Origin: Planoprotostelium fungivorum
Taxonomy: Eukaryota; Evosea; Variosea; Cavosteliida; Cavosteliaceae
Direction of reading: 5' to 3'
Length of the DNA stretch: 64,000 nucleotides
Assembly: GCA_003024175.1 (NCBI GenBank)
Contig: MDYQ01000078.1
Coordinates: 62,001 to 126,000, forward strand
Shown here: in pieces, positions 3,061 to 64,000 of the stretch
How positions within the stretch are numbered: position 1 is the stretch's first letter
Layout of the letters: the number at the start of each line of letters is the position of its first letter
The notes under the pieces: model-generated
Told to the model about the DNA's origin: nothing
The model's input: the letters and a program-made list of their open reading frames with translations, nothing else
Databases searched by the model: none
Made by a program: the position numbers and the translations under genes

Positions 3061-4063
3061 ATGGGAGGTGAGAGCCTCTTTCGTTAACGAAGAGGATCCC
3101 TTTTTGCTGATAGGATCGACTGATGAATTCCGTGCAGGTTCGAAGTCTAAACTGAAATCCAATGAATCCTCCAAAGAGGCCGCCAAACCAATCAGTGTCG
3201 TCTTATTAGGTGCAGGTGGTGTGGGGAAGGTGTGTGGATCCATCTGCGACTTTGTCTTCGGCACGTCAACCGCGTTGACTTAACATAGAGTGCCATCACG
3301 ATCCAATTTGTGAAAGACAAGTTTGTCGAGCAATACGATCCGGTGAGCTCTTAATGTTGAGTAATGTCTTCCATTCTCATTATCATTGCAGACCATCGGT
3401 GGGGAATTTGAGGAACTACATCAAATCTAACGCAGAGATAGAGGACAGTTACAGAAAACAGATCGTCGTCGATGGAAAAGTGCAGATGATGACAATCTGG
3501 GACACTGCCGGGTGCGCTTCGTTCAAAATCCTACATATCTTCTAACTCAAACAGACAAGAAGAATACAGAGCACTCCAAGATGGTTACATCCGAGATGCA
3601 TCGGGATTTGTCATTGTCTACAGCGTCATCGATCAGACGAGCTTCTGCGACATCAGGTCAGGAGCACCGACTCCGTGTCTTCCCTCTCAACTTCTTTAGG
3701 AAATTATACGAACGAATATTGAGAATCAGAGATTGCGAACGAGTTCCAGCCGTTTTGTTAGGAAACAAAGTGGACATGGAAGTCGATCGGGAGGTGCGTC
3801 CATCATGATGTCACCTCCACCTTCTATCGTCACGATGGTGTTGACATCACATCAGGTCACGGCCGCTGAGGCAAAACAATTGGCCGACGAATACCATATG
3901 GATTTTCAAGAGACATCCGCTAAAAATAAGTGAATCTACAAGGTTGTAGATAGAGATTGACATGTGAAGGACCGGTGTAGAGCAGAGTTTTCATCAGTTG
4001 GTGAGGGCCATACGGTTAGCAAACGAAGAGCAGACTCCAGGAAGATCGAATAAAAAGAAGTAA
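3061..4063 (+). CDS. Ras-family small GTPase without CAAX box
   Basis: Molecular switch of the Ras subfamily. Splicing short introns gives a continuous protein of about 200 residues starting MGGSTDEFRAGSKS (ATG at 3061, first intron 46 nt). G1 is GAGGVGKS. The effector region reads DKFVEQYDPTIEDSYRKQ, the Ras/Rap switch I. G3 is DTAGQEEY, G4 is NKVD, and G5 is ETSAKNKTGVEQSFHQLVR. The intron after SAKNK contains a near-perfect palindrome, ATCTACA-AGGT-TGTAGAT (3934-3951). The C-terminus is NEEQTPGRSNKKK-stop. It is basic but lacks a Cys-containing CAAX motif, so the usual farnesylation signal is missing; membrane binding would need the basic tail or a partner. G2 threonine and the glutamine of DTAGQ are present, so it should cycle normally. 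Confidence 0.93.
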
Positions 4064-4408
4064 TTGATTTACGCTCTGTACGTGTTGACAATGAGAATGT
4101 CGTCATCACAGTATAGGAGAAAAGTTATAGCTAAAGTGTGAAAGAGTAGTCATTCTGTAAGGAATAAATCGCTTGATCTCGCGTCGATGCATCATCCTTT
4201 GTTGACGGACAGGGCGGTGTTATTAATACCAATTTGACAAACTTCCTTGGTACATTCTTCAGTGAAATACGGTAAAGCCGTGATGAGTACGGTAAGTAAC
4301 CGTGCCCGTGTAAGAACCTTCGGAAAATATCTCAGACAGACGCGTCGGGAAGCATGCACGATCCGTTTTGGAGGCTTTTTATTATCCAACCGACAGACAC
4401 ACAACAAC
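4064..4408. other. Intergenic region between Ras and nitroreductase genes
   Basis: About 345 bases. No ORF with family resemblance and no repeat was seen. It should hold the Ras 3' end and the nitroreductase promoter; a short AT-rich stretch (TTTTTATTATCC) lies 25-30 bases before the next start codon. Confidence 0.35.
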
Positions 4409-5250: not shown

Positions 5251-5390
5251 AGATGAAGTTCACCTTCGTACCACAAACGGAAAACAAAATAGAGAGTCTC
5301 ATCTCATCTTTTGCAATGAGAGCAGCGCGAGTCATCCTTCGTCGTTTATTGTGACGTTCCACATTGAACATCACCATCATCGGCGTCTTC

Positions 5391-8300: not shown

Positions 8301-10140
8301 GATCACGATCATGAGGATCATCACGATCACGTTCATCATCAGATCATAAAGACTCACTTGTGATCGATAAGATTGCTAATTTGGGAAGTGAGATGATGAA
8401 GTCTGTGGAATTGAAGTAACACGCATTCATCCTCATTGTAGTCAATGCCTTGATCGTATTGACCGCCTGCGGATAAACGGAGAAACTGTTGTTGCTGATG
8501 TCCAGCTGATTCAACACCGGGAAGCTAAACGTGTAGTTTGGTACATCGTCCATCATGAAATTATTCTGCATCAGCAGGTAGATCAGGTTCGGAAAGTTGC
8601 CGGAAAGCTGAGGAAAACTCCCTCCTATCTTGCAGTTGTTCAGCTGTATGGATGTCACGGATGGTGCAGTGTAAGGAGTGGAAGTGATTTCGATGCTGTC
8701 AAAATCGTTGTCGTGCAGCCAGAGTTTTTTGAGTTTGGGGGAATTTGTGAAGATAGAGACGGGAACAGTTCCGTTGAATTGATTACTATGGCAATCAGGA
8801 TGATCGTGATCGTGATCGCAATGAGATGTGGTGATGATGACATTGAGATGTGATCGTGATGAGTTGATGAGGATACGATGATATAGAGGCCACCACTCAC
8901 TTGTTCAGAATAAGCGAGTTGATCTGTGTCAGATTCATGTTGGCAGGCAGACTTCCAATCATCCCATTAGTACTGTTCTCGTCAGCGATGCACATCCTTC
9001 CGTCCATCTACAACGCTCACCCCACATCCAAGTATGTCAGATTCGACAGCTGATTCCATTCTTCCGTAAATTCTCCGCTGATCTGATTCGATCCTGCGTT
9101 GAAGCTCTGTGGGACGTTACACCCTGTCTGTTACGTCTCGGTACTTACGGTGATGTTGGGGTAATGACTGATGCCCGATAGATTACCCTTTAGATGATTC
9201 GAAAAGATCGAGACTGTCTGCAGTGAAGTCTGTGATGAGTGAGAGACCGGAAAAACGGAAGAATGGATCGATCACCATGTTACCCAACAAGTCCATGACG
9301 GGAGAAGTCAATCTACAATTCCTGGAAATACTGTCAATACGGCCTCATCATTATTTTATTTCATTTTAATGTGAAAAGACTCACTGTACGTCGAGAGATG
9401 TGACGGACGAAGGGAAGGCCGCATAAGAGGTGATGACGTTGTTTCTGAGAGTGTCAGCCCGACCACCATGAGATCACGTTACCCTAAGCTCAAACTATTC
9501 AAGTTTGGAAGTTGGCTGAGATCGGGTATGGACGTACGGAGCTGGTTGCTGAACATCGAGAGAGTCTGCAGATTGATCATGCTTCCGATGCATGCGGGCA
9601 GTTGTCCGGTCAGTTGGTTCCTTTTCATCGTTACATCCAGAGACGGATCAGATGTCACAAAGATGACTCACGTGTCTAAGCTGAGGACTCTCAATTGTGT
9701 CAAATTACAGATGGCCTGCGGTATGTTGCCCGACAGTCCCAGACCATTGAGATTCAAACTCTGAATGCGGGGACCTAAGAGCCCCACAGATGGATCGATG
9801 ACACCCGTAGAACTATTGATGAAGGATTTGACTTTACTGGAAGAGACGTCGATACTGTATGGGAATGATGCAACTGAGCAGCTCAGACCAACGAAGTCAT
9901 TGCCCTGACAGGGCTACATAAAGTCAACCGTGACCTCTCCACCACATCCGATGTGAACTCACATTCGATCCCTGCCATTGAGTCTTAGCACCTGTGAAGG
10001 TCAGTTCTCACAGACTTTCATCACTGTTTACCCCCTAAGCCGAGCCAAAACGTTCTCAACGCTTGAGCATCGGTCTGCGCGAGGACAACACCGAATGAGA
10101 GCCAAATGAGCAGGAGAACATCCTTGAGTGTCCGGTTCAT
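5391..10140 (-). CDS. Receptor: LRR ectodomain, GAIN/GPS motif, one TM helix, tyrosine-kinase-like pseudokinase
   Basis: The start at 10140 gives a signal peptide (MNRTLKDVLLLIWLSFGVVL). A cap and a long series of leucine-rich repeats spread over many exons follow (about 7550-10050; e.g. LTYLDLGSTNLGGPLPPLYL-type repeats). A GAIN-like segment (about 7000-7450) ends in a GPS motif near 6775-6879: C-x2-W, W-x4-GC, then CSCTHLTNF. It has the canonical paired Trp and Cys residues and the HL-T cleavage tripeptide. One TM helix (about 6622-6696) and a basic stop-transfer IVRKRAAP follow. The cytoplasmic part is a tyrosine-kinase-like fold: VVIKK lysine, ELHHPNIVMF, MEYMDGG, APEAL, ASDVYSFGLLLW, and a final DRPSF. 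The catalytic loop reads LVHTRLSTNK in place of HRDLAARN, and the DFG region reads KICGW. It should therefore be catalytically dead. Role: probable surface receptor signalling by scaffolding. Confidence 0.87.
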
Positions 10141-10723: not shown

Positions 10724-12567
10724 ATGGAAGAACACCCAGTTGACTTGGGATTTGATTATCTGAGAGGAGATGACTTTCAAGAAGATATATATGGAACAAC
10801 ATTTGTAGGATTGAGCGATGACTCTTCACCAGAGGGCATATCGATGTTCAGTGACATAGAAGACACGACAAAAATCGAGGGAAGTCTTCTGGGAGTCAAT
10901 GGGTCAGATCTCTCAAGTCCATTCTCCTCACCATACAACAACAACGACGGCGGATTCGTCTTTGACGTCTCGATGGTCGAGCCGACAGTCACACCCACCG
11001 ATCTGGACGTCTTTGCCAACTTCAAGCCCGATCTGGCGTCTCTCAAAGTAGTTCCATCGACTCCAAAATCGATTGCCAACGTATCGGCAACCTCCAACGA
11101 TTCACAAGCCACCATTGGAAAGAAGAGAGGAAGACCAAAGAAGGTTCCACGAGAGAGTAAGTCGCGATCACGATTTTGGGAGAAACCATCTGAGACCAAA
11201 CAGACGAGAGCACGGATATAAGCGCCGTTTTATTGAAAGAAGAAGAGCTCCTTCGATTGGATTCTGCCCGATATGAAGAACAGATCAGTCTACTCAAATC
11301 GAAGAGGGCTCTTACATTCGCAGAGGAAGAGTGCATCAAGGTAAATTGTAAATCCTTTGTTTCGGGCCCTCCATCCATCTTCTCATTTTCAATCTCACAT
11401 CTTTCTCAGTCACAAAGAAGGCGCATCAAGAACCGCGAGAGTGCTCACAACTCCCGCGAGAGAAAAAGGCAGGCCACAGACGATCTCGCATCGCACATTC
11501 ACATACTGGAAGAAGAGAATCGCAGCCTGAAGACACAATTAAACGCTGTCACATCCGAAAATCAGACTCTCCGCGAGCAATTAGCACGATTCACGAAATC
11601 AACGGGAGCCAACCCAAAGGCCATCGTATCGAGGTGACCCCTCCATCCCTTCATCTTCCACCTCTCATCTTCCATCTCTCATCTTCCACGTCTTCATCTT
11701 CCACGTCTTCATCTTCCATCTCTCATCTTCCGTCTCTTCATCGTGCACCATCTGAATCCATCACAGAGCGAGAGTCACGAAGAAAGTGGCCACGGCAACG
11801 ACTGTCTTTGTCGTTCTCTTCTGCTTCGGACTCTTCCTCCAGCAAGGTAAAGACAACGAGCCCAGCTTATCTTCTGCTCCCACTCGTTCTCTCTTGTCCT
11901 TCGAGGAAGCACAGAGAGTAGAGGGTAATTGCAGTCGTTACGATGCCCCCGTGGAAGGTGAGTCGCATTTGAATGAAACGGTTTTAATGAAATGCGACAG
12001 CTAAGCCGACCGTAGACAAATGGACACCCTCGGGCTCCGAGGTGGCCCGATGGGTCCCCGACGCCGCCCCCGCCGTTCCCGCCAAGGAGGTGAGCGAATT
12101 CTCGGAATATTCCATCTACAACGGTCTCATCTCTTCAGGTCACCGTCTATCCAACTGAAGTCGTCATGAAAGGACAAGCTTCAGATGTCAGCCGCGTCTT
12201 CAACAATGAATCAGCGGAAGCTGAGCCAGTTACGTACGGCAACCTGTGGGAGTGTGGCTTGAAGAGAAGAACCAACACGCACTACTACGCTGTCAGCAAG
12301 CTCGAGCAGATTTTCCCGCCAGAAAGTTCAGAGAATGTTTCGGGGGAGACGTACAAGATGAGCTTTATCATTCCCTCCTCGTCTCTTCCCAGCAAACCCA
12401 ACAATTCCGGGGAACCCACCGTGGTAGAGATCCACACGCAGGTGGGAAGACATGAAGGAGATGACATGTCTCATGATGATCAGGTGTTGGACATCTCTTT
12501 CATCCCTGTCCCCACCTCATCACGAACGACGGTGGAAGAGCCTACCAACGTGGCCATGGTTATCTAA
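10724..12567 (+). CDS. ATF6-like ER-membrane bZIP transcription factor
   Basis: Likely a membrane-tethered stress regulator. The start at 10724 gives MEEHPVDLGFDYLRGDDF, an acidic Ser/Thr-rich activation region. An AT-hook-like KKRGRPKK (about 11120) follows. The bZIP basic region is RRRIKNRESAHNSRERKR (about 11415-11470), followed by a leucine zipper (HIHILEEENRSLKTQL and on). After an intron comes a single TM helix, ATTVFVVLFCFGLFL (about 11789-11835). The luminal part begins GKDNEPSLSSAPTRSLLSF, where RSLL at 11885-11896 fits the site-1 protease pattern RxxL just after the membrane, as in ATF6 and plant bZIP28. A second half of about 150 residues (GNLWECGLKRRTNTHYYAV and on) would be the sensor domain; I do not recognise it. 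The intron before the TM exon holds repeats of CATCTTCCA. Confidence 0.85.
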
Positions 12568-12783
12568 TTGAATGTATAGAATAGAAAAGAATAGAATCTT
12601 GCCCCTCCTCTGTTGATCATCGTTGCAACGAAAAAGTTCAAGTTTGATGTAGAGTGTCGCAGTGCCGCTTGTCTTGCTGACGATGCATTTCTGTGAAGAA
12701 TTGACAGTAGCGTGGTACCATGCATTTTACACATGAAATGATTCCCATAATGTTTGATGAGGTTCAAAAAATTCGATCGACAT

Positions 12784-12889: not shown

Positions 12890-13011
12890 TCGCCAAGATA
12901 TGGACATCCACCGCATTTTGCTGAACTGTTGCTGGCGCTCAAAACTGACAATCGTAGTAGAATGCAACTTTGTAATAACCATAATAAAATTGACTCAAAA
13001 AACTGCGCGAT

Positions 13012-16955: not shown

Positions 16956-19627
16956 ATGGACTGGGGAGCGTTGCATGCAACACTGAAGAAGGCTCCTGTC
17001 AAAAAGAAGACAGTGAAAAAGACAGTCTCCAGGGGTGAGCGAAATCACGATTCCATCCGATTGACACCCAACCAGCTGAGTCGAAGACGGAAGACAAGAC
17101 AGAGAGGTGAATCCATTACGAATGTCTTCAACGTGATGACTTCGACTCAGTTCGACATCACCATTTGATGATTCCCGAGGCACACAAGATGACGCCCAAA
17201 CTGGATCGGAACAACCAGATGAAGTGGAATCACCCCATTTAGATGACGGATCAGAGGAAGAGAAGAGACAAAAGGAGGAGAACAAGTTGAGAGAGGAAGA
17301 GAAGAGAAAGGAAGAAGAGAAGGCAGCGGCAGAGAGATTGGAGAGGGAAACATTAATCGAAGAAAAGAAAAGAGAAGAGAAGAAGCGAGAAGAAGAGAAA
17401 TTGAAAGAGGAAGAGAAGTTGAAAGAAGAGAAGAGGAGAGAAGAAGAATTGAAAGAGAAGAACAAGAGAGAGGAGGAGAAGAGACAAGAAGAAGAGAAGA
17501 AGAGACAAGAAGAGAAGAGACAAGAGGAAGAGAAAAAGAGACAAGAAGAAAAGAGACAAGAAGAAGAGAAGAAGAGAGAAGAACAACCAATGATACAAGT
17601 CAGCTCACCTCCACCCATTCCAAATCGAATTCCAAAGATTCTATTGAAGGAACAACCTCCCACTACCACGGATACATCCTCTACAACGAGCCTCCAAACC
17701 TTGGAGGGAGGGTAAATTTTGATCAGTCTTTTCTCAATGGATTGAAACTTCATCCAGTTCTACGCAAGAAGCGGCGGATAAGTTGAGGAGATCCAGCGAT
17801 GCTGATGAAGAGGTGAGACTTGATCGTGATCGTGATCGTGATCGTGATGATCATGAAGATCATCGTGATCATCCTCGATTGACATGTGACAGACGAAATC
17901 CAAGAGCCCCAGATTGAAATCTCCTCGAAAGATCGAGCCGGGAGGTGAAGGCAGCGCAATAAATTGGACCAATCTACACCGACTCACAACCTACACGAGA
18001 CCTACCATCGGTGCGTCCATCCTTTTTATTCTATATCCACCTCATCTCATTCTATTCTCTCTCCTCTCCCCCTCACATAATGGACATCCAATCGATTTTA
18101 TTTCATTTTATTCCCCTCATCTATTTCTCTTTCTCTTCTTCACACGCAAAAAGAACGAACGAATTAAAGTTATCTCTTAAAGTAAAATAGGAGAGGAGGC
18201 CAGAGTCAAGAAAGTCATCGAAGAGATCTCGCAGGAAGATCCAGAGAAGAAGAAGAGAGACGAAGAAATGGCAAAGAAGAGACAATTCATCGTGAATGAG
18301 ATTCTCACCACAGAGAGAAAATATGTCGCCGCCCTCGACGTACTGGTTAACGTGAGTTCGCGAAATTTCAACGAAATCTAACGACGAAAGGGATTTTACC
18401 TTCCCATGTGTCAAGAGTGGGCCAACATCGGTCTACAATCGATGGAAACGGTGTACAGAATATTCGGAAAAGTCAGTGAAATTTCATAGAATTTTGGAAT
18501 TTTGGCTCATTGTAGATAGGTGGACGTGTTGCGGCATAATCACGAATTCTTATTGAAGGGATTAGAGGACAGATTGGAACACTGGACGCCAGATAAAAAG
18601 ATCGGAGATCTATTCTTAGATCAGGTGGGACGTACCGTACGTTCACAATTGACTCGTTGTAGACTGATTTCCTCCTGCGCTACCGACATTACGTCAACAA
18701 TTACAACGTGGCCCTGCAGACTCTATCGGCACACCTTCAAATACCAGAGTTCAAAACTTTCATCCGGGTGATTTTCTCTCTTTCACTATCACATCGCGAA
18801 ATCGATCCACTTTTTATTCATTTTATTTCAGACTCGCGAAGCTGCCCCAGAGTGCAAGCATAGCGACCTCGGCAGCTATCTCATCGAGCCCATCCAAAGG
18901 ATTCCCCGCTACGAGATGTTGCTTAGAGATCTCCTCAGAAAGACGGACGCAGAACATCCCGACCATCACAACATAAGAGCTGCTCTGACCAAAATAGAAG
19001 AGATCATGAAATTCATCAACGAACAGAAGAAGAATTCGGAAGAGATTCAAAAGGTGGAGGCTAAATTGGGGGAGAAGGTATCGCAGGGTCTGGTGAGATT
19101 GGAAATCGAGTTGAAATTTGGGACTGACGGGGATAGTGGTTGTACAATAGAAAATATTACAAGGAGGGAACTCTATACATCGTGGCCAATCGAGGGGCAG
19201 ACAAAGAGCGTCACGCCTTCTTGTTCAATAATCTGTTATTACTCTGTAAAGAATTGACCGAAGAAGTGAGTCTCTACAACGTTGTAGATCATCAGTTCAT
19301 CTCTTCCAGGAATACGAAGAAGGTGGTCCCATCTACAGAGTGAAAGAGACCATCGGCATAGACACAAACACCCACCTCTTACCCTGGATCGCACCAAAAG
19401 GTGAACCCTTTCATCTCAGCGTCTCATATCTAAACTCACAATCAGGACAATCGACCGGCTTCGTTCATATCGAAGTGCAGAAGAGACGACACACGTTCAG
19501 AGAAGATACGGCGGAGGCGACTCTGGCGTGGTACAAGACGATGGAGCAGGTCAGGGAGGATTTGAAGGCAGATTCCATCGCGAACGTTCTGAAAACGAAC
19601 CGAAGGCATTCGAATAATCCAGAATAA
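16956..19627 (+). CDS. RhoGEF with long charged coiled coil, DH and PH domains
   Basis: Activates Rho-family GTPases by nucleotide exchange. The start at 16956 gives MDWGALHATLKKAPVKKKTV. The main exon (about 17170-17715) encodes a highly charged coiled coil of E/K/R/Q repeats (REEEKRQEEEKKRQEEKRQE style). The DH domain opens with FIVNEILTTERKYVAALDVL (CR1) and runs through MCQEWANIGLQSMETVYRIF. It closes with GSYLIEPIQRIPRYEMLLRD (CR3, about 18860-18930). A PH domain follows (NRKYYKEGTLYIVANRGADK, LFNNLLLLCKEL). The last exon ends NVLKTNRRHSNNPE. The intron at 19267 carries the palindrome CTACAACGTTGTAG (19274-19287). The intron near 17820 is full of TGATCG repeats. Target GTPase unknown. 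Confidence 0.9.
17818..17860. repeat. (TGATCG)n repeat in RhoGEF intron
   Basis: Six-base unit GATCGT repeated four times, then GATGATCATG. Confidence 0.85.
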
Positions 19628-20739: not shown

Positions 20740-20745
20740 TCTTAC

Positions 20746-28216: not shown

Positions 28217-29704
28217 CTAAAGACACAATTGTGGAGGTGGTGGTGTCTCTGGTATGCCGTTGAGGCTGAATCGATCGGAGGAGAAGGCTAGACGGGCTTC
28301 TTCTGTGAGTTGATCGACGAGTTGGTTGAGGGGGGAGACATTGGTCTTTGTGGATGTGACATTTGCGGCCGGGGGAAACGTGGCCGTTGTAGATGGACCC
28401 GTGGAGGGTGGGAACGAGGGGGGAGCGGTCGTGGCGGGAATTTGTGTTCCTAGAAATGAAATGAATACGAATTTTTCGTCCATCTACAACGAGCACCTGT
28501 GGGATTCGCTTGGATCGTCCCATTCGTATTCGCTTTGAGATGTCATTGACGATATCTTGATGACGTCACACTCACCCGTATCAGCTGGAGGGGCAGGTTG
28601 TAGTGGAGTATTTACGAGTGGAGTCTGTACGTTCACGCTGGGAGGGGTACTGATCGTGGGTTGGTTGAAGACGTTGTTCGTTGTAGATGGAGTCGTCCCA
28701 ATTGTACTCCCGCCGGGGCCGGTCCCAAATACGTTCGTTGCGGGCTTTCCAAACACGTTACCGGAAGAATTACTTGTCCCAAATACACTGCCGGCAGTAT
28801 TACCGGAAGAATTACCCGTCCCAAATACGTTCCCTGTTGTAGTCGAAGGTGTCCCAAATACGTTCCCCGTTGTAGATGGAGCCGTTGGCTTACCAAATAC
28901 ACTGCCCGTCGTAGTCCCAGATGTCCCAAATACGCTGCCCGTTGTAGATGGAGCTGTGGGCTTACCAAATACGCTACCAGAAGAATCGTTCGTCCCAAAT
29001 ACGCTGCCCGTTGTCGTTATAGATGGACCGAACACGCTGCCCGCCCCAGGTGTGTTTGTCTTTGCAAAGACGCTACCGGAAGAATTACCGGAAGAATTAC
29101 CCGTCCCAAAAACGCTACCGGAGGTGTTACCCGTCCCAAATACGTTCCTCGTTGTAGATGGAGTCGTGGACGGTCCGAACACGCCCGCGTTGGCTGTGGG
29201 TGCCATCGAGGAAGATTGTGCAAAGACACTCCCCGTGTTGGATGATGGGTTGTTGAATGCATTGGTGGTCGATGGTTGTGCGTTTGGATTCTGTACCTGA
29301 CAGAGTCATTCCTTCGATGTCTACACGATGCAAAAATTCACCTGGTCTAACAGAGCTTTCTTACTGTTGCGAATCTGTTCGGCTATGACTTTGACTCGCT
29401 CGTTCTGTTTTCGTCAATTTCATCACAGAGACGGCCAAAGACTCACGTATTCGTTGTAGTTGCCATTCTTCTTCATGCACTGATATGCCTCCCATCTCAG
29501 CTCCTCAGGTGTATATCCGATTCCAGTATACTGTACGGACGATGAGTACTGATGATTTGAATTGGCATCACATACATAATCTTCAAAGCCATAAGCTGAA
29601 AACTCCCAGGACTTCTCTTTCGTTGTGAGTTCTTCGATGATGGTTCGTACCGTTGCCGCTGAAGGAGCCTTGAAACATGAGAAATCACGCAGTGGCCAAT
29701 CCAT
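28217..29704 (-). CDS. FG-repeat nucleoporin, Nup42/NLP1/AMO1-like
   Basis: Nup42-type proteins sit on the cytoplasmic face of the nuclear pore and bind Gle1 in mRNA export. The N-terminal exons hold a folded block, AATVRTIIEELTTKEKSWEF then SAYGFEDY, that matches the region after the zinc finger in fungal Nup42/AMO1. A helical part (GYTPEELRWEAYQCMKKNGN) follows. The centre (28560-29240) is FG repeats of the type SVFGT and NVFGK with Ser/Thr/Asn/Gly spacers. The C-terminus (NQLVDQLTEEARLAFSSDRF, SLNGIPETPPP) fits the Gle1-binding tail. The usual N-terminal CCCH finger was not found, and the true start is uncertain; 29704 is the first ATG in the open frame. Five PSTT stretches are encoded by the exact word CATCTACAACG. 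Confidence 0.75.
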
Positions 29705-42789: not shown

Positions 42790-44486
42790 TCATACGTTAC
42801 CATATAACGGGTGCACCTCGTAGACACAATTCTTCTTCGATTTTGAAACGACAACACAAACGAATGAAACAGTAAAGACGACCTCAAATGTATAAATGTC
42901 CTATCGTCTAATAGAAAGTGAAGGGTGGGCTGTTCTTCGGTTGACAGTGACTCTAACAGACGTGAGAAGAGAAGACGAGATGATGCATGAACCTTTTCTG
43001 CCTCTGCCACGGCACGTGGCATGCTCATCTCTAACATGTGGATGCGATCTTTGTGTGGAGGATGGGTAGAAAAATATTTCGGAACCTATAGAGATAGTCA
43101 AGATCGGTTGCTGCTACTGATCGTGCCGCATGTGATGTACGATGTGTCGAATGAGTTGGATATGTGTCCTTCGAAATCGAACGATCATCGTGATGATGAT
43201 TTGATGGTGATGGAGTACGTACTTCTCCTTTTGGTCTCTCTGAAAACCTCTTCCATATTTCGGGCGCCCTCTTAAAGTCGTAACAAGCTCTCGCCATCAA
43301 TACCAACCTGCGCCTCATCAATAGACATGACACGATGATCATGCTCACCCGATGACGTCAGCTTCATGTTCTCTCTTTCTAGAGAAGGGTAACGTAAGAG
43401 CTAAGCCCGTCACCTGTCCATGTTGAATGGACGTTACGAGATGATTGAATGTCTCTTCACCGTAGGAGCTAACAGGCCGACGTGAAGAGCTGAAGCGATA
43501 AACACAGTGACGAACCAAGTGAACTTGTTGTAGCCGAGACCTGGATTTATTTCATTTATTCATAATGAATCGTTGTAGATGGACTCACCCTCGGCCGTGT
43601 GCCTGGCGACGATGTGACCGATCTCGTGGGACAGAACGGTTGCCATGCCAACTTCGTCTTTCATCAGGGGTAATATACCCGTGAACACGCAGACTTTCCC
43701 GCCTGTACACCTCTCTTCAGTTTCCCGCGCAAAAAAAGGCGGGAAAATGGGGTCGACGCACCGGGTAGAACGAAAGCGTTGGGCTCTTCTGACTTGATGA
43801 CGTTCCACTCCCAGTCGAGTTGTTGGAGTTCTGGAATGTTACTGCTGTCTATGATCTTCTTGCCGACCTTCTTGACTGCTAACACGTCCTGTTCTGTGTC
43901 ATCGGTTACATCGTGGATCATGATATGGTGGTTGGTGGTGATGGGATGATTGGAAGTGATGGGTTCGTATTCACCCTGTGGTTTGGTGGGAGGATCTTAT
44001 CTTTCTGTAAAGGATGGTGAGATCTCAATTCGATGTATCTTGATGACGATATGATGTATCACATATTGAACGAGGATCTGTTGATAAGGTTTTTCTGATA
44101 GTTTGATCTCTTGTTCTCGACTGAGGTCGATCATACGCCACCGTCCTGGACCATATCAGACACAGAGGAAATGGGCCTAATAGCACCTGTGACCTCTACT
44201 TTCTCCAGGTGATAGACGTAATAAGCACCGAAGAGAACAGCGAGGCCTCCCCCCCATTTGGCAATAGAAAACCCATTACGGCGAAGCCAAGAGTCCTCAA
44301 ACGCACCTGATACGAAGGTGTGAGTCATCATGTTCTTTGTCTTCACTGATGAATTATCATCACACCTCCAAAAGGGCGATCATCTGTGGGCTTTGATCTG
44401 TTGAAGAAACCTCGCCTGAATTGTGATTGAGAATGAGACCGATTCGTTGACTGATAGAAGCGATGGAAACGGCTACCCCAGTTCAT
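42790..44486 (-). CDS. OMA1: OMA1-like mitochondrial M48 metalloprotease
   Basis: OMA1 is the stress-activated inner-membrane protease that cleaves OPA1-type substrates. The start at 44486 gives MNWGSRFHRFYQSTNRSHSQ, rich in Arg/Ser and free of acidic residues, a good presequence. A TM helix (GGGLAVLFGAYYVYHLEKV) follows. Next are RWRMIDLSREQEIKLSEKPY and LDWEWNVIKSEEPNAFVLPG. The catalytic exon reads VCVFTGILPLMKDEVGMATV then LSHEIGHIVARHTAE, with the HExxH zinc motif intact. Further exons give LMARACYDFKRAPEIWKRFS and VPKYFSTHPPHKDRIHMLEM, the family's third-ligand and C-terminal blocks. The last exon is less sure: a splice to KNCVYEVHPLYGNV-stop at 42790 is the best fit I found. Confidence 0.9.
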
Positions 44487-46656: not shown

Positions 46657-49600
46657 ATGTGGGTCAAACCTGAACCACACAAGTCTGGTATGTCTTGGAC
46701 GTGCATACAACAAGATGAATATTTCGAAGTGAGTCTCATAGAGGGTCACATTCACGTTCACAATACCTCATTCACGTATCATCTTCGTGAACGTCCGTGC
46801 GATGTTATGGATGATGATGATATCACAGATTTACAAAAAGAGAATGGGGTTTTCCATGTTGAAGTCTGAGAGTCCGTTTCGGCTAGTCATTCGATCGTGA
46901 GATCTAACTCCTCTTTCCCGACTCAATCTCTCCAGTGATCCACCTCGGATGGTAGCTGAAGCGGCCACTCAGGAGATCATCATGAGAGACTTTCAATCCG
47001 CAGAGAGAATCCTCAACAACGCCATGCTAGAGAACGAGAGCATCGCGAGTCTCAATATTGCCGAGCGGATCGATTTCTTACTCGTCCGTCTCCAGTGCAT
47101 GACGGTAGAACTACTCAACTCAAACGAGAAGAAGGTCCAGCAGGTGATGGAAACGTTTCACTTGCAAGTGTAAATGTTCGAATCAGGAAGAAGAACAGAG
47201 ACAGAAGGAAGAATTAACTTCAGCTGATGCATTTCGTAACACGTTCGACCTCAAGACAGAAAAATTATTAGCCAGTGAGAGAAAACTCGTGGAGAACTCA
47301 CGCTCACTTGTACAGCCTTCGCTTGCTCTATGTGGGAGAAAGTTCCAAAATCTGGCACGTTGTACTTGTCTCACAATTATCTCTGTTTTTCTTCTCCTAT
47401 ATCTACTAGACTGGTCAAATTATTACTGGTAGAGATCAAATCAATCAGCAAGGTGAAAGAAAAAATCACATGTTAAATGATTTATGCTTCTGATGCGCGT
47501 TGTAGACGAAGCACAACGGTGTGGGCACCATCAAGATCGTAGGACCGACGGAAGAGGTGATTTTCCCGCCAAAATTCTCACTCATCCCCTCCAGCTCTGG
47601 TTGGTCTCATTTCGATTGAACGACATTTTCGACATGCTGCAACAACTGTGGGACCTTGCAATGAATCGCGTTCTACAATCGGCCGAGAAGACGATGGAGG
47701 GGATAGAGGCAACCTATTCTAGAAGGATATCCACGACGAAATGTGCGCCTCGTTGTAGATGAAATATTCTGACACGTCTGCAGCGGCGGAGACACCTCTC
47801 AGTCCGAGGCCGGTACCACAAAAATTCAACTCGAAAGCTTCTTTACAGCAGAACAAGAGGGACGCAAATTTTCAGCAGAATTTCAGATTACCATTAGATG
47901 AAACGCTGCTGAAAGGTGTGTGGGTGATCGGAGGAGAAGTTGACGCGTTGTAGAATACACGAAAGTGAGGGTATTGAAGGGAACGAAGTTCAGGAAGGGT
48001 AGATTGTACATTTCTACGCATTTCATCGCATTTGAATCGAACACGTGGGGCAACAACAAGTTTTTTTCGGTGAACTGATTCTCTCCTCATTTTTATTCTT
48101 GATTACAATGAGAAGAACTTGAGATTATTTCTATATCCGTTGCGAAAATGTCATTCGAGGTCAATTTTATTTTCGATAGAAAATTTAATATTCAACTCTA
48201 TTTCTCGTGAAATATTTGTTGACAATGAAATGTAGTTTGTCATGGCTTTTCAAGATATCGAATTTATTTCTACCTCCGAGGACGATCCTTTCGTGTTAGG
48301 AGAGGCCGGTGAGATTTCATCGAGATTTCATCGAGATTTTCGTGTTACTGAACGGCGTTGTAGATCTGAGTCGGTCTCAACGGAGTTCACAAGTTATCAA
48401 ATTACACGAAGCAGTTGGAGAGTATAGTATCCAGGTGAAGACAAACGTATTATCATCCTACGACGTGACATGGTAACGATCGTGAAGACATCAGATCGAA
48501 TCGTCTGTGCTAGATTCTTTCATCATCTTTTCGCATCGTGATCATGATGATGATGATCTCACTCGTCACGATCGCGATCACATCATCACATCACAACGAT
48601 CGCGATCTCATCACGATCATCTCATCCACTCCGATTCACACGAGAAAAAAGGTCCCCGATGACAACCAACGTGACGCTCTATTATCCGAACTGAACGATC
48701 TCCACTACAAGATCAAATCTCAATACAACGAGAAGAAACTCGTCAACTCCTGGTCGGTCTGGTGAGCCCTCTCCACCATCTACAACCGTAACCGTACGTA
48801 ACAGGTCGTTGAGTATAGAAGACAAGATCGGTCAGAGCCTACTGGAAAATCGGCGGGAATTCGCGCCCATGTACGTTGAGAAAGAAGAGAGAAAATCAGA
48901 AGATTGGAGGAAGTATTGTGCTAAATATGGAAACGGTCTCAGCATGACCAAGACGGACAAATTGAAGCTGATGATACGACAAGGCATTCCGAACAATATA
49001 AGAGGTGAGTCTACAACGTTGTAGATGGAATTGAGTGAGGAAAGGTCGCATGTGGATGATTTTTTCCGGCGCCTTCGCTCTCTTGTGAGTTTCATTCCAA
49101 TACGACTCGTCCCAATTCCATCCCAATTTCCACGATTAAATATATCATCAGGTTATCGAAGGGCGCGGGATATTTTCAATCTCTGTATGATAGGAGAGAT
49201 GAATGCCAAGTGAAAGATGAAATTGAAAAAGATCTACACAGAAGCTTTCCCGAGCATCCGTTTTTTCAAACAGAAGAAGGTCTCAACTGCCTGAGAAAAG
49301 TCTTGGTCGCATTTTCTGTGTGAGAATTTATTCTTCATATCTACAACTCGTGCCGGGAAATTCGAGGGAGAATTCGATGAAAACTGAACGAGATTTCAGA
49401 CATAATCCGGTGATTGGATACTGCCAATCGATGAACATCGTGTGTGCTACACTTTTGTTGTTCCTCCCGGAGGAGCATTCCTTCTTTCTACTCTGTACAA
49501 TCTGTGAACAACTTGTGCCCGATTATTATGTCAAGGCCATGATCGGCTCCATTGTAGATCAGAGGCTCTTCCAAGGTGACTGAAATGTCTCATCCTATTT

Positions 49601-51204
49601 TCCACGATTTTTGATCCATATTTTATTTTTCTCAACCGTTTACAAAATGACTCTATTTTACAATCACATTTATTCTATTTCCATCGTTCTATTCTCTTCT
49701 CTCATTCTTACACAACCACATCGTCACTTTCCATTTCTTTTTTCTTCTCAAATTTTTCTCACTTTTCCATAGAACTGATGACGAATGGAATGCCTGAAGT
49801 TGCCGCTCATTTAGAGAGCACCGGTCTACCTTTACCTTTAGTCACTCTACCCTGGTTCATGTGTATATTCATTGGTTACGTTCCATTGGAGGTGAATCTC
49901 TGCGATATTTCGCATCGCAGATCGCGGATCGCTGATCGCTGATCGCGTGATTCAGGTGGCGCTGAGGATATTGGATTGTTTCTTTGGTATGGACGGACCA
50001 CCCTTTCTCTTCTCGGTGGGATTAGCTCTGTTCGAGGTGAAGAAATGTCGACCGTTGGAATGTATGGAAACTGATGGTCGACATTGTTCAGGCCAACGAA
50101 GAGGCAGTTCTGAACGAGAACGATGGAACGCTGCTGTCGAATCTTCTGCGAAATTCAGTGAAAGATCCAGATGATATCTTACCTGTATGTACATTCATTC
50201 CTTTTTAATTCTGGTTGTTTGAAATTTGAATCACCCGCTCACCGTCCCCAGCTGGCATTTGAAGAGGCAGACCTGATCACACCATCCATGTTGGCCGACA
50301 TGAAGAACACACACAGAGCCAAAGCCATCAAAGACATGGAAACAAAGACGGAAAATACTCGCCTGAGAGAGCTGAAAAAGTCGGTCAATCGTGAGTCGTC
50401 CGTCTACATCGTTGTAGAATGACGTTCTTCAGTGTCGCCCGCCGACGTGACTCGATTGTACAACGAATTCGTGTCAGCGAATCGTGGTACGCAGGCTGAT
50501 TACGTACAATTTGAGGAATTATTTCAGAAACATTGTCCAGAGTGGGACGGAGACATTGAAATCCAGATCTTATTCAAGGTGAAGGGAGCGTTGTAGATGG
50601 AGGCTGATGGAGGGCAGTTGCTGGATAAAGATAGAACGGGTTTGATTGACGTGGGAGATTACGTATCCGCTCTGTCGATCATTTTGGCGGGAACGCCTGC
50701 AGAGAGGATCCACTGTGAGACTCGTTGTAGATGGAGATACTTAATCTATTTTCAGTTTCATTTCGTCTGTTTGATGGTGATGTCGATGGTTTCATATCGA
50801 AAGACGAATACGAATATGCCGTCACGCTGCTGCAACGGTGATGATTTATTCTATTTTATTGTTTTTCCGCCCTAGTTGACTCTTTCAGTTTCTACGAGAA
50901 GAAACCAACGAAAGAAGAGAAGGAAGAAACAGTAGAGAAGAAAGAGAAGAAGAAAGAAGTCGACCTCATCTCCTTCGATGACGATCACGATGATCATGCC
51001 GATGAGGACACTGCCACACCACCGAAGCAATCTCCACGATCTCCTGATGGCCTGTGGAGGTCTAGATCCATCGACGTACCTGCCATCACGGTCTCCTTCC
51101 ACCAATCGGATTTGGATGAGGACAATCGACTGTCCTTCAAAGAGTATCAAGCAGCCCTCCATCATCCGATATTGCAACCCGTTTTGAACCTTCCCGAGAA
51201 ATAA
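46657..51204 (+). CDS. TBC1D8/9-like RabGAP with GRAM, TBC and EF-hand regions
   Basis: Rab GTPase-activating protein. The start at 46657 gives [11 protein letters not shown], close to the MWVNPE opening of animal TBC1D9. A helical N-terminal part ([20 protein letters not shown]) follows. A GRAM domain comes next: [11 protein letters not shown], then [20 protein letters not shown] and [18 protein letters not shown]. The TBC domain starts [20 protein letters not shown] and has the arginine-finger segment [16 protein letters not shown]. The glutamine finger is [20 protein letters not shown]; later blocks include [20 protein letters not shown] and [22 protein letters not shown]-terminal EF-hand-like pair includes [20 protein letters not shown] and [18 protein letters not shown]. 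The end is PVLNLPEK. Both catalytic fingers are present. At least five introns carry the CTACAACG motif, including 49011-49024. Confidence 0.9.
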
Positions 51205-58288: not shown

Positions 58289-58489
58289 GCTCTGAGAATC
58301 GATCGATATCCAAATAAAAAATGATTTTATTCTTCGATGACTGTGGCAACGTGTGAGGTGAAGACAAAAGCTCATGCGTTGTTCAAAGTCAGACGACACA
58401 GACCATCACCATCACAATTCAACATCATCAACGTCACCGTCATCACCATCAAGATCGGCATGCATCATCTTCCTTCATTTTATTGAATC

Positions 58490-61208
58490 GAATTCCGATC
58501 GGCGTTTCGGGGTTCGCATCGATCGGACATCCGATTCATCTCTTCTTCGGTGACGATGTACATCCTCTTTGAATCTAACATCTGGGCGATCTGTGGGATC
58601 TCTACAAAACTGTATCCTTGGTTCTGGTATCGTGTCACCTGTACATCCTTCAGTCATCATCATCCATCATGAGATGATCATATCATCAACATATCATCAG
58701 ATGACGGTCGTGATCATCATCGGAATATATATCATCAGATGATCACGATCATGATGAGGAGACATGAGATGATCACGATCATGATGAGGAGACATGAGAT
58801 GATCACGATCATCATCACAACATCGGATGATGTTCATCGCGAGACGATGTTCATCGCGAGACGATGATCACGATGAACCTTCTCACCTTCTCTATGATGT
58901 CGTAGATCTGCTTCCTCTTGTTCACGTTGATCAGGTCATCGATGGTGTCCGGATTCTCATCAATGTAGACGAGATCTCTCAAGAACAGACCCCTATTCCC
59001 ATCAGTCTACTTTTCATTGTCGACATTTCAAAGTCGACAATTGTTATCTCACAGGAAAGGGATGCAAGGCTGATCCGCAGCGTTCAACATGTTTCGATAG
59101 GCCAACGGGTCCGTCAATTTCTCAGAAAGTTCCTGGAAGGTCTGTCCACGTTCAGTATCCCCTCCCTCGAGAAATTTCCGAGAAAAATGAATCTACAACG
59201 AGCCCACCCTGGACTGTTGGTTGGGTAGTTCGGCCCACGTGTACTTGAGCTTGTGTACTGCAGTACAACCCAAGCCACCAGACACGATGGCCATCGCAGT
59301 GCTAAAATTATTCATCCCCGCCGTGAATTCCGCGATACGTATGAACCTGAAATTTCGCGTGAATTTCGCGTAGTCTCACGACATCGATACGGTAGAGGAC
59401 GTATCACCTGGTCACGGCCTTGACTCTCTTTCTGATCTTCTCTTGGGAAAGAATGGTGAAGGCGACCCAATTGGATATGAGATTACTCCTCTCCGTCATC
59501 TTGATGATGTTCGGTGCCTTGTGTCTCAACCTAGGCTTCGTCCAAGCTTGGTTCATCAATTCTGAGGCCTGGCTAAATTTAGAATCGTCGAGTTGTAGAT
59601 CGACATACCTGAATGGAAGAGAAAATGTTGAATTCGATGATGGACAATTGTCTGGCGATCTCTTCGTCATCACAGTCCCAAATGGTCAGGGCGGGAGAGA
59701 AGATGGTCTTCCACGGAATCTACCTCGTTCTCAGGATTTTCTCGGGACGTTCCCGGGAATCACCTTCGGTTCCGGGATCTTATCTTTCCTCGAAGAATCC
59801 TCTATGGTTTTGACGCCCGTGTGTAGATCGAGAGCTCTCGTCAATTGTTGGGCCAAATTCTTCGACTCGATTTCGACCATCTTGATAAACTCTTCTAAGG
59901 CAGTCATGAGCTTGTCGCTGTTCTTGAAATCATCAAAGTGCCTGGTGATCCACGACTTGATGACCTGGATGACTGGAAGATTCGGTGAATCTTCGTGGAA
60001 TGGGTGAAATGTCTTCACCTTGGATGCGAATGCGAGCCTTCTGTACACGCCACTCTTCGTCTCTCTTGGAGAGGGTGGGATCTTTGGCGGGAACCTGCGA
60101 GATTCAGTCCATCTACAACGATGTAGACGGTCACCTGATATCTCTCGATCAATTTCTGCAGCAATTTCTCGGGCGTGACGAACGTCTGGTAAGTGTACAA
60201 TACGATGTCTCTCAAGTTCGATTCTGTGATGATGTCACGTTGTGATGATGAGCCACACGGTCTCACTCGTCTCTTCGTCGGTCATCCTGAGGATGATGTG
60301 ATTGAGAGAAGCGGCTTTGAGTGAATTGGGATCCTTTTCTTCGGGTACAAAGTTGAATTGACTCTCGTTCCAGATGTTCGTGTCCTCCGACTGCGTCTTG
60401 TCTGTCACGATCGTCAGAAAAAAATTTCTAGAATGAAAAACCTTCGTGGAGATCTAAGCTGAGGAGGTGCTCTCTTAGATCGTTGGCGTTCGTCTCTTCG
60501 GTTGTAAATTTGTCATCTGAGATGAGGTGTCAATCGGTCTGTTTCGATGAGGGTGTAGAAGGATGAAAGGTAGAGATGGTGTCGAAGATGATGTGACAAG
60601 ATCGATGTATCACCCATGGTGTGATCCCAGACCATCTCCGTGTCTTTAACGGCCAATCGCATGAGAGTCACCAGACGACTGTCTGTCAACTCGGGTCTCT
60701 GTACGTCTGTGATCATTCAGAAATGAGTTCCGCACGAGATCACATCACATCTTCTGCCGGACACTTTCTCGAGCTCTTTACGACTCTGTCTCAATCCTTC
60801 CATCTGTAATCCTTCAGACTTTCGTCTTCAAAACGGCCTGACCTCGAGGTGTTGCATTATCAATTGCATGATTACATCTTCCTTCAATAGCTCCGATCTC
60901 TTCTCTGCTTTGATCGAACCCTCATCCGTGTAATATTCTTGAGCGAAAGAGCACGCTCTGAACATCCATATCACCCACGGCTGACATGCAACCAATCTCA
61001 CCTCTCTAAAGGATAAATCCTCTCTTTTAACGCAGCAATTTCCTTGTGCTTCGTTCCCACACGTGCGGCCCAGTCGGATCGATCGACGACGGGAGCTGTG
61101 AATGATATCAGTGTCTATATGGTGAGGTTGAAGATGATGATCACGTGGAGGAGGCGACCGAGCACCAATAGTGTTGGAACGTGTCCGATTAGAGGCAGCG
61201 GCCCTCAT
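58490..61208 (-). CDS. LisH-containing Ras guanine nucleotide exchange factor
   Basis: Activates Ras-type GTPases. The start at 61208 gives MRAAASNRTRSNTIGARSPP. After a short coiled region, SELLKEDVIMQLIMQHLEME then GLRQSRKELEKVSG resembles a LisH dimerisation motif, common in Dictyostelium RasGEFs. A RasGEF N-terminal (REM) module follows: NLRDIVLYTYQTFVTPEKLL then QKLIERYQVPAKDP, and LPVIQVIKSWITRHFDDFKN. The catalytic Cdc25 domain has LTIWDCDDEEIARQLSNIEF, SNLISNWVAFTILSQEKIRK, FIRIAEFTAGMNNFSTAMAI, VSGGLGCTAVHKLKYTW, AADQPCIPFLGLFLRDLVYI and DENPDTIDDLINVNKRKQIY. The end is CEPRNADRNSIQ. Intron 58670-58870 holds a 30-bp tandem repeat. Confidence 0.93.
58741..58812. repeat. 30-bp tandem repeat in RasGEF intron
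   Basis: Two full units and a partial third of a 30-base unit starting GATCACGATCATGATGAGGA. It is itself made of GATC/ATGATG words and embedded in a larger ATGATC-rich intron. Confidence 0.9.
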
Positions 61209-61360
61209 GATGTCAGGAAAGCTTTGTTCGGTTGTCAATTGACATTTCTCTCGTTGTAGAACCGACTTAACCAGAATTTACACATGTCATTCATTCACCC
61301 TGCCTGTAACTCTGCCATGTGAAGACAGACACAGACACCTCTATCGTATAATCATCTTTA

Positions 61361-64000
61361 TCAATTCGCCGATGGAATGGGTGACGGAGGCATGTGAGGT
61401 GGTGATATGATCTCCGACATCTCTGTCAGTCCATCAGACTCTACAGGCTGTGAGTCCGAGTGGACGAGCTCGACCGGCGTGGAGTAATCATCGGGCTCTC
61501 CCATGGCAGGATCCGTATACATTCTTCTGGCCTCTTCGACCTCTTTGTCGCTCAGAGGTTCACAGATGAGATAATCGAGCGGTGGCTGTGATATGATGCC
61601 CAGATATCTAGTCCTGAGGTACAAATAGAAGAATGCACCCATGGCGATGAAAGGAATGACGGCGACGCCGGCGATGAAAGACTTCATGAGGAACAGAGCC
61701 ACCATCAGAATCTGTGATGATGAGTCACGTTTAGATCCGTTGAGATGAGTCACGATGACGAGATCAGATGAGAAGACAAAGTACCTGATAGATGACGAGA
61801 GAAGCGAAGACCATCTCCATGGTGACGGGAGAGTGGTTGAAACCTTCGTAGGCGAGAGAGTAAGAGTACATCATGTGATGCTTCGTGGTGAAATAGGCCG
61901 AGAAGAAGAACATGGCGGCAAAAGGGTTCACCAAGGGGCCCAACACCGAGTAGATCAAACCGATACTGAAGACTGTCCGAAGATAAATAAAACGAAAAAG
62001 ACACGTTCCACGTGATAAATAAAATGAAATAAAATGTTCACCGAGGATTTCGTCGCCGATTTTCGTGACAAAATCGAAAGCTCCGGGGTCCTCCCTCTTC
62101 TTCTTCTCTGCTTTCGTCTTGGATAAGAGTCTGGCCAATATTTTAGACACGGCCAATTCGACGGCTCGGCTCAAGAAGAGGTAGTGTCCGGCTGGATGAT
62201 GACGTCAGACGATGAGAGAATAAAACGAAATAAAATGCACGCACAGATGTTGACTAGGATGTAGTTGATGAAGAAAGTGGTGACGCCGGGGACGGCGGAG
62301 GCCAGGAGAGATGGAATGTTCATTGGTGATTCGAGGAGGGTACCGATGGATCTGATGGCTCATCAGACTCATCATCGATCGGTGTGCATGATGTTGATGA
62401 TTCGGATGCATCACGGTTTGTGATGTGATGTCGTTTTGTGATGTGATGTCGTTTTGTGATGTGATGTCGTTCTGTGTAGAGAAGATGAGATGAGGTGATG
62501 CTCACTTGTAGAGTGCACCAGAGATGACACAGACGAAGAAGACATTGAATAAAACGAAGGACCAGTAACTTCTCATGACTTGATGGTCTAAGTACAATTC
62601 ACTGTGGAAGATCAATCACAACGATAAGATTCACATTCCATTATACCTGATGGGAAATGCGAGAGAATGGATGCTCCTCAGAATGAGAACGAGGAAGAAC
62701 ATGAACAATCGAAGGGCCAACGTCGGCAAAATTCCTTGTATAATACCTTTCTATCGTCAATTGAAATGACTCTTTCATCACAGAAAGATGACATCGTAAC
62801 TCATGAAGATGAAAGATAAATCATCTCAATAATCAATCAACGAAAACGAGAGAATATAAAAGATGAATCATCTCTTGATCATCAATAAACGAAAGATAAA
62901 ACTGTGAACGAGAAACTCACCCGTCAACCAAGAAGAAGTAGCTAACAGTTTCACGAGAAAATCGAAACCGGGGATCTTCGATAAAGTGGCCAAATTCATG
63001 ATGCCAGATAAGAAGGCGACGGGTACGGGCCAGAATAAGAAGAGTGCAATGATGAGACCGATGGAAGCGATGGCTCCAACAGTTCTCACGTGTGCTCCTC
63101 GGTTGACGTTCTTCCAGATGATTGAGTCTGCGTCCTTTTTTTTGCGATCAGTCGGTGGAGAGAGGAGAGTGGACTCACCGGTGCCATGGTAACGGATAGA
63201 CTCCATCTGTGTCTGCGCCGTGTCAGTCGATGTGATGATGATGATCATCATGTCCGTGATGAGATGCTCGTCTCGATGATGACAATGTTCAATCTTCATT
63301 CACCTGTGAATCGTCTGAGATGCCATGACCGCCGCAGGTGCTCTCCTGAATACGGCAAACGCCAACGGGGTCACCTTCTTCTCGTTTTCCCTCACTCCTT
63401 CTCTGTCTCTCGTTCAGCCATCATACTAATCCACATACACTATCATTTACCTCGCTGCATCGATCTTTCTAAGCAACTCTTGTTTCTTGATCGTGTGGAA
63501 TTCTTCAGAGTCCATCTTTGGTCCACACAGACTCTCCTTGTGAGTCAATCTCTCTTCTCCTTCCTTCTTCTCCTGGGAAGGGTGAGTCCATCTACAACGT
63601 TGTAGATGGAAGTCACCGCGTTGTAGTCGATGGCGATCTGGAGGTTGTTCGATACGACGGAATATTCCTCTTGTAATTCTCGGAGTTTGGCCGCGGAAGG
63701 CACCATGACGAGAGCTCCAATGCTTCCTGTCTCTCATCAGTCATCGCGATCACCATCATCATCATGATCTTCAGAATGTGAGAAGATGATCATCACCTGC
63801 CGAGTGGATTCTCTCCATGGCGGGAAGTAATTTCTCTTCCGATCTCAAATGGACGCTGACCTGATCGCATCGTCAGAATCCATCATGTTAGAGTGTTCCA
63901 TGTCCCCACGTCTTTGATGAGCGCGGTCGACCTTCGAGTGCGGTGCTTCTGAGAATCTCTGATGGCTAAAAGGGAGCTGAGAGATGCATACTTGTACATG
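61361..64000 (-). CDS. OSCA/TMEM63 (CSC1-like) mechanosensitive cation channel, 5' end outside window
   Basis: Osmo- or mechanosensitive channel of plasma or endo-membranes. The visible 5' part is the cytosolic domain: HRTRRSTALIKDVG, VSVHLRSEEKLLPAMERIHS, GALVMVPSAAKLRELQEEYS, VTPLAFAVFRRAPAAVMASQ, DSIIWKNVNR. The membrane core follows: GLIIALFLFWPVPVAFLSGI, MNLATLSKIPGFDFLVKL, ILPTLALRLFMFFLVLILRS, SYWSFVLFNVFFVCVISGAL, ILVNICAGHYLFLSRAVELA, GLIYSVLGPLVNPFAAMFFF and HHMMYSYSLAYEGF. The acidic C-terminal tail ends PPHMPPSPIPSAN. The N-terminal TM helices lie beyond 64000. The intron at 63573-63615 is built around a perfect 22-bp palindrome (63588-63609). Confidence 0.92.
62415..62478. repeat. 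18-bp tandem repeat in OSCA-like gene intron
   Basis: Three near-perfect units of GTTTTGTGATGTGATGTC followed by a partial unit. Intronic. Confidence 0.9.
63588..63609. repeat. Perfect 22-bp palindrome of the CATCTACAACG family
   Basis: Two inverted copies of the 11-mer joined head to head, filling about half of a 43-nt intron in the OSCA-like gene. It is the longest perfect example in the window. Confidence 0.95.

Follow-up and report, generated by a model that had tools for sequence, protein, structure and literature searches.

The 11-mer CATCTACAACG stands out in 64,000 nucleotides (nt) of Planoprotostelium fungivorum DNA (contig MDYQ01000078.1, positions 62,001 to 126,000), a stretch that is called the window here and was searched on both strands; all counts refer to it. 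The word is present in large excess, has a sharp core, is enriched in short introns, is used in both orientations and recurs in a doubled form, the dyad. We tentatively read it as the core of a recognition site of 13–17 base pairs (bp) for a putative sequence-specific factor, a site that may be kept by selection in transcribed gene bodies and that perhaps acts on transcription together with a partner at a neighbouring E2F-like word, TGGCGGGAA.

Abundance and shape of the word

Twenty-five exact copies on the two strands were observed, compared with a mean of 0.06 and a maximum of 1 in 100 dinucleotide shuffles. This bears out the over-representation claimed in the original prediction, whose coordinates were correct to within 5 bases for each copy. 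The one-mismatch relatives mentioned there are present as well: with up to one mismatch the word was found at 42 places against 1.0 expected. CATCTACAACG is the most frequent 11-mer of the window. The 8-mer CTACAACG occurs 50 times versus 5.8 expected from a fourth-order Markov model. Distinct 8-mer sites number 47, of which 42 lie outside a block of copies in an FG-repeat gene (FG block); merging of palindromes and removal of this block left 20 distinct sites of the 11-mer. Outside the window, the 20-mer palindrome had no match in viral_contigs. A 16-mer had 13 matches in viral_contigs and 79 in genome_contigs, the latter number being near the ~60 expected by chance for 257 billion bases with equal base use. 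None of the 92 loci examined around these outside matches contained the 11-mer more than once, and the locus richest in 8-mers (L088) had 4 in 2,760 bases. A published account of the word was not found in the open-licence literature.

Seventeen copies with a single substitution accompany the 25 exact ones; 15 of them deviate in letters 1–3 or 11 and only 2 in letters 4–10. This sharp core makes a neutral repeat unlikely, as neutral decay would leave more mutated cores. In the aligned copies the flanks fade, with TCCAT before and [AC][GT] after the 8-mer; the 8-mer itself is fixed in the alignment by the choice of sites, and the substitution count is the independent test of the core. Within the 20 motif introns, the motif-side flank TCCAT was present in 5 of 8 copies that read CTACAACG on the sense strand (F) and in 8 of 16 that read CGTTGTAG (R). 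Flanks included, the site measures about 13–17 bp and reads TCCATCTACAACG[A/C][G/T]. A sharp core, graded flanks and both orientations are typical of a transcription-factor site.

Placement in introns and coding exons

The window has a G+C content of 47 % and short introns, 36–49 nt in the seed set and with a median of 44 nt (the length prior used being centred on 42 nt). Pfam matches in genes and open reading frames (ORFs) comprise ribosomal protein L21e, two RhoGEF domains, RasGEF_N, TBC, EF-hands, an M48 peptidase, SHQ1, RRM, SURP, leucine-rich repeats, GPS and Prenylcys_lyase, in addition to an FG-repeat ORF. Ab initio gene models were set aside; since they over- or under-called introns, the analysis relied on a motif-blind intron score and on Pfam matches of spliced peptides crossing the junction. 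The score combined splice matrices, the 42-nt-centred length prior and the coding potential of the 60 nt flanking either side. Its matrices were built from 11 introns without the motif, judged to be real, and only GT..AG ends are allowed. At threshold 6 it recovered 9 of the 11 training introns and 7 of 8 motif introns read by eye, missing the one at 49005. The lenient set at threshold 4 includes false introns, and those at 13929 and 14451, in the region of the SURP/RRM ORF, may be coding. At the level of predicted spliced peptides, several motif introns are confirmed by Pfam matches reading across their junctions (M48, rhodanese, RhoGEF, RasGEF_N, TBC, EF-hands). The motif introns, dyads and repeated coding copies are listed with strand and motif-blind score.

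229..285 (-): dyad ATCTACA-CAGG-TGTAGAT straddling the donor boundary of the intron 229-275, which is 47 nt long; a Prenylcys_lyase match spans the junction
775..789 (no strand): dyad TCTACA-TGA-TGTAGA without the 11-mer, from the dyad search
3935..3950 (no strand): dyad TCTACA-AGGT-TGTAGA without an intact 8-mer, from the dyad search
8973..9020 (-): putative 48-nt intron, sense R copy; score 6.3
12090..12138 (+): 49-nt intron, sense F copy; an exonic E2F-like word starts 14 nt before the donor; score 13.6
18625..18662 (+): 38-nt intron of the first RhoGEF gene, its 3' end being the R 8-mer (ACTCGTTGTAG, up to the junction); junction at residue 141 in the RhoGEF (DH) match 59-239; not in the motif-blind set
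19266..19309 (+): 44-nt intron of the first RhoGEF gene, perfect dyad; junction at residue 306 in the PH match 270-324; score 12.0
28450..28496 (-): putative 47-nt intron of the FG-repeat gene, GTGCTC donor, sense R copy; read by eye, fits the gene-model frame, missed by the motif-blind score
28679..29160 (-): four exact copies of CATCTACAACG in a coding repeat, frame PSTT, FG-nucleoporin-like ORF 28484-29305
32116..32168 (-): 53-nt intron of a rhodanese-like gene, GTGGGT donor, sense F copy; the rhodanese match spans the junction (22.9 bits, cut-off 22.2); score 5.5
39475..39526 (-): putative 52-nt intron, sense R copy; score 8.2
40115..40200 (-): putative 86-nt intron of the second RhoGEF gene, sense F copy, acceptor uncertain; score 5.8
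40585..40625 (-): 41-nt intron of the second RhoGEF gene, dyad CTACACCGTTGTAG; the RhoGEF match spans the junction; score 9.1
40753..40844 (-): 92-nt intron, two inverted copies 39 nt apart (40775, 40825) with an 11-bp perfect stem; frame kept, junction outside the Pfam match; the score chose 40747-40844
43541..43588 (-): 48-nt intron of the M48 peptidase gene, sense F copy; the Pfam M48 match spans the junction; score 9.8
47743..47783 (+): putative 41-nt intron, sense R copy; score 5.2
48762..48804 (+): 43-nt intron of the TBC-domain gene, one-mismatch copy CATCTACAACC; read by eye, in the gene models and recovered by the motif-blind score
49005..49044 (+): 40-nt intron of the TBC gene, perfect dyad CTACAACGTTGTAG; junction NIRG/RMW at residue 137, which falls within the TBC match 134-263 by three residues; score 5.3
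50391..50432 (+): 42-nt intron, dyad CTACATCGTTGTAG with the sense R copy intact; junction at residue 47, outside Pfam matches; score 11.8
50579..50617 (+): 39-nt intron, sense R copy; junction at residue 96 in EF-hand matches; score 11.8
50715..50755 (+): 41-nt intron, sense R copy; upstream, at 50684, the exon has an E2F-like word; junction at residue 128 in the EF-hand_7 match 90-151; score 8.7
59142..59207 (-): putative 66-nt intron, one-mismatch R copy; score 4.3
60095..60134 (-): 40-nt intron of the RasGEF_N gene, dyad CTACATCGTTGTAG; the following exon contains an E2F-like word; the RasGEF_N match 34-114 spans the junction; score 7.6
63573..63616 (-): 44-nt intron, perfect dyad within a 24-bp palindrome, 10-bp stem with loop ACGT; no Pfam support; score 10.5

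The original prediction placed the copies mostly inside short introns, which is borne out with reservations. A preference for introns was found at every threshold. Among the 20 distinct 11-mer sites outside the FG block, 15 were intronic at threshold 4 (introns covering 18 % of the window; rotation mean 3.6, p 0.0004), 9 at threshold 6 (9.8 %; 1.95, p 0.0004), 6 at threshold 8 (4.8 %; 0.96, p 0.001) and 3 at threshold 10 (2.0 %; 0.4, p 0.011), but four further copies are coding in the FG-repeat gene, and 28385, one of the 20, probably is as well. The five sites outside introns at threshold 4 are 28385, 28481, 35061, 35471 and 55247, of which 28481 is putatively intronic by eye despite its absence from the motif-blind set. 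The 8-mer behaved alike: of its 42 distinct sites without the FG block, 25, 13, 9 and 5 were intronic at thresholds 4, 6, 8 and 10 for rotation means of 7.56, 4.11, 2.0 and 0.84, and at threshold 6 it was present in 13 of the 122 motif-blind introns. The poorer gene models, at the most sensitive of four settings, assigned 9 of 50 8-mers to introns, 13 to coding sequence (FG block included) and 28 elsewhere, corresponding to densities of 2.05, 1.32 (FG block included) and 0.56 per kilobase (kb). That many copies lie within about 10 nt of a GTGAG donor proved overstated: GTGAG was present within 30 nt upstream of only 11 of the 47 distinct 8-mer sites (rotation mean 4.9, p 0.007), against 3 of 47 in the mirror control. 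This count understates intron membership because the donors of motif introns include GTGGG, GTGAA, GTGCT and GTGAC besides GTGAG.

Of 15 copies within threshold-6 introns, 11 sit before the intron midpoint. On the sense strand of these introns CGTTGTAG (R) was counted 11 times and CTACAACG (F) 4 times, with dyads counted in both and one R in a doubtful intron. TTGTAGA is the top strand-specific 7-mer of the 122 intron bodies. Domain-confirmed introns contain both orientations, F in 43541-43588 and 32116-32168 and R in 18625-18662, 50579-50617 and 50715-50755.

In the FG-repeat ORF the copies at 28679, 28868, 28940 and 29150 translate as PSTT, and according to the gene model the copy at 28385 is probably coding in the same gene. 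Coding copies of the word were found in several reading frames; a one-mismatch copy at 15218 lies in an RRM-like coding segment, and the copy at 14489 in the SURP/RRM ORF, scored intronic at threshold 4, may truly be coding. The concentration of four exact copies, probably five, in a single gene is what a coding repeat, low-complexity sequence or an assembly artefact would produce, yet as a source of the whole excess such an origin is hardly conceivable: 20 distinct sites with unrelated flanks are left without the FG block. A coding repeat behind all of the enrichment, which the original prediction had named as a possible refutation, is thus ruled out for most copies.

A DNA site or an RNA element

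The E2F binding consensus is TTTGGCGGGAA, which the neighbouring word TGGCGGGAA matches. Of the 11 occurrences of TGGCGGGAA in the window, seven are no more than 70 bp away from CTACAACG (rotation mean 1.07, p 0.001); for GGCGGGAA and a distance of 150 bp the corresponding figure is 9 of 16 (rotation mean 3.0, p 0.005). Of all 7-mers counted up to 100 bp from the sites, CCCGCCA and GCGGGAA show the strongest enrichment (uncorrected p 4e-5 and 2e-4). Spacing and orientation of the E2F-like word relative to the site are variable. Among the candidates of the original prediction a protein-binding site fits best, in view of the sharp core, the graded flanks, both orientations, the coding copies and this E2F-like neighbour. 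A sequence-specific factor would recognise the site, presumably as double-stranded DNA, and selection would maintain it. Many copies sit in the 5' half of ~42-nt introns, which are free of codon constraint. The site would then be an intragenic, intron-borne regulatory DNA element, with some copies in coding exons and few in DNA of intergenic appearance; dyads may be dimer sites, and an action on transcription may involve the E2F-like partner. We tentatively favour recognition of double-stranded DNA over an RNA element, without regarding DNA versus RNA binding as settled. The more elaborate proposal, a dedicated factor that reads a near-invariant DNA word in either orientation in about one tenth of the ~42-nt introns (13 of 122), singly or as a dyad, beside E2F-like sites, is improbable as a whole.

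Several observations weigh against a DNA site. A plain transcription-factor site should crowd promoters, whereas few copies lie in DNA of intergenic appearance, as judged by reading with the intergenic limits unannotated. In the TBC gene copies extend to the EF-hand end and are apparently not promoter-proximal there. The surplus of R over F on the sense strand (11 versus 4 at threshold 6) is unlike free orientation, and the copies keep to the first intron half (11 of 15). Places with two mismatches (59, permuted-word mean 14.9) and three mismatches (261 versus 134) are also raised, below the permuted maxima of 122 and 422. The E2F-like word was chosen after being seen, several variants and two distances were tried, and the p values of the 7-mers are uncorrected; some of the E2F-like words lie within conserved coding sequence. 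Part of the E2F-like association may be due to chance.

Further words of the window were observed beside these. Inverted E2F-like words, TTTCCCGCCT ... AGGCGGGAAA, are 32 nt apart at 43695-43746, one of them being GGK codons of the M48 gene. None of the 12 copies of GATCGTGATC lies within 70 bp of CTACAACG, ATCACGATC is over-represented, and imperfect GATGAT and GATCGTGATC-like repeat stretches occur at 32710-32868, 33641-33751, 38957-39094 and 58733-58812. On the minus strand, 6526-8249 contains in line leucine-rich repeats, a GPS motif and, after it, what looks like a membrane segment; together they perhaps form one receptor gene.

The doubled form announced in the original prediction was recovered as three perfect copies of CTACAACGTTGTAG (19274, 49011, 63592) and four one-mismatch doubles (3936, 40600, 50404, 60113). 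Dyads of the form TCTACA-N3/4-TGTAGA number nine against 0.09 by random placement, six of them in motif introns. Their spacers are 3–4 nt long, with none of 5–12 nt in a search covering 3–12 nt, and read on the + strand ACGT three times and ACGG, TCGT, ACGA, AGGT, CCTG and TGA once each. TCTACA also tops the 60 perfect 6-bp stems with loops of 3–4 nt, with 9 occurrences versus 3 for the next stem. Such regularity would be expected from a pre-mRNA element downstream of the 5' splice site, either a stem-loop UCUACA-N3/4-UGUAGA or single-stranded CGUUGUAGAU, bound by a splicing factor or another RNA-binding factor; we consider this possible, though doubtful, and only slightly less likely than a DNA site. 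Since three dyads have the loops CCTG, TGA and AGGT, the stem is kept in them without the 8-mer. TTGTAGA as the leading strand-specific intron 7-mer, the surplus of R on the sense strand and the scarcity of copies in DNA of intergenic appearance point in the same direction. Outward of the 6-bp stem, the first pair that is not Watson-Crick is a G-U pair of the transcribed strand in three of the six intronic dyads (49005, 40585, 60095), which leans to an RNA stem, yet chance alone would put all three on the sense strand in 1 of 8 cases. A plain mismatch comes next in the dyads 19266 and 50391, and 63573 is Watson-Crick paired for 10 bp. Energy z-scores are low at 63573 (-5.55), 50391 (-2.92), 40585 (-2.64) and 60095 (-2.53) but weak at 19266 (-1.49) and 49005 (-1.29).

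The single copies are less favourable to an RNA structure, and most of the 47 distinct sites are not dyads. Relative to shuffled flanks, pairing is reduced for the single F copy of four introns out of five (12090, 40115, 43541, 48762; not 32116), and for single R copies it is raised in 3 of 7 introns and reduced in 4; a consistent pairing of single copies in the intron RNA was thus not found against this control. The splicing hairpin of the original prediction accordingly suits the doubled minority with its nine dyads and not the single copies. F and R are different words as RNA, yet both are present in confirmed introns. RNA after GTGAG is folded no more stably than RNA before it (mean -4.40 versus -4.44 kcal/mol). 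A general excess of hairpins after donors was considered and is weak, with stems of at least 8 after 8 of 229 GTGAG words and before 4, about 2 being expected from random windows. A branch-point role was dropped, R copies being at least as common, and a PUF-type reading of the R copy (UGUANAU) leaves the F copies unexplained.

Comparison with introners and other known systems

The motif introns may be suspected to be introners, copies of a short mobile element that brought the motif along, some with terminal inverted repeats. The link between motif and introns, the two inverted copies in 40753-40844, the 10 of 190 intron pairs with an E value of 1e-5 or better (the database being limited to these 20 introns) and the ends and stems shared by the candidate introns 11958-12000 and 15144-15180 agree with this origin, which we nevertheless consider very unlikely. 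Motif introns align with one another over 23 nt at most, and 160 pairs of the 20 are similar at E up to 0.1, but in none of these does the similarity come within 10 nt of both splice boundaries, so the introner-type elements of the original prediction find no support. Separated inverted copies are present in 1 of 20 introns (40753-40844), the other dyads being contiguous. Six of the 20 introns have a repeat of 3–5 nt at both junctions; five of these repeats are AG/GT-like, as expected from the splice consensus, and one is GAAAG; target site duplications of introners are 3–9 bp long and restricted to some families. Mutated copies are few, and copies occur also in coding exons, including the RRM-like segment (15218, one mismatch). 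Introners are defined by a similarity that extends to both splice boundaries (PMC9860276), and the introner elements of Amoebophrya have mostly non-canonical splice sites (PMC7789003). Both systems share with the motif introns an intron-linked repeated sequence and inverted repeats in some introns. The motif introns differ from them by the lack of similarity to both intron ends, the GT-AG ends, the mostly AG/GT-type flanking repeats and the few decayed copies. The domain-confirmed motif introns are GT..AG, which are also the only ends that the score permits.

Hairpins of other sequence were observed in introns of the window. The candidate introns 11958-12000 (+) and 15144-15180 (-) share the ends GTGAGTCGCATT ... 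AATGCGACAG, and each folds almost entirely into a hairpin whose stem measures 9 bp. The pair resembles a hairpin-intron family of two members, of which the intron at 15144-15180 is a putative one. Long perfect stems of unrelated sequence are present in the introns 50037-50091 (+) and 59973-60018 (-), AATGTCGACC/GGTCGACATT and GAAGATTC/GAATCTTC. Perfect stems of at least 10 bp with loops of 3–30 nt number 9 in the window versus 0–2 in five shuffles.

Repeated words in introns are usually splice signals of fixed orientation or parts of decaying mobile elements, and a word with a near-unmutated core that occurs in two orientations, often within minimal introns, fits neither well. If the reading as a recognition site is true, tiny introns would gain a second, selected role as carriers of such sites. 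The intronic splicing enhancer of yeast Mer1 is a short intron word near the 5' splice site, recognised as single-stranded RNA in one orientation; it shares with CATCTACAACG the position in introns near the 5' splice site, whereas both orientations are used here. In comparison with an E2F site, TGGCGGGAA is a neighbour and not the motif itself, and several copies lie in coding exons.

The intron-mediated enhancement motif TTNGATYTG of Arabidopsis is over-represented in introns and works also from coding sequence, splicing being unnecessary, and a sequence-specific binding protein has been proposed by its authors (PMC6760150). The plant motif belongs to promoter-proximal introns and ceases to act farther than about 1 kb from the start (PMC6760150). 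CATCTACAACG, known from sequence alone, resembles TTNGATYTG as a short word over-represented in introns and present also in coding sequence; it differs in its sequence and in sites that reach the 3' part of the TBC gene.

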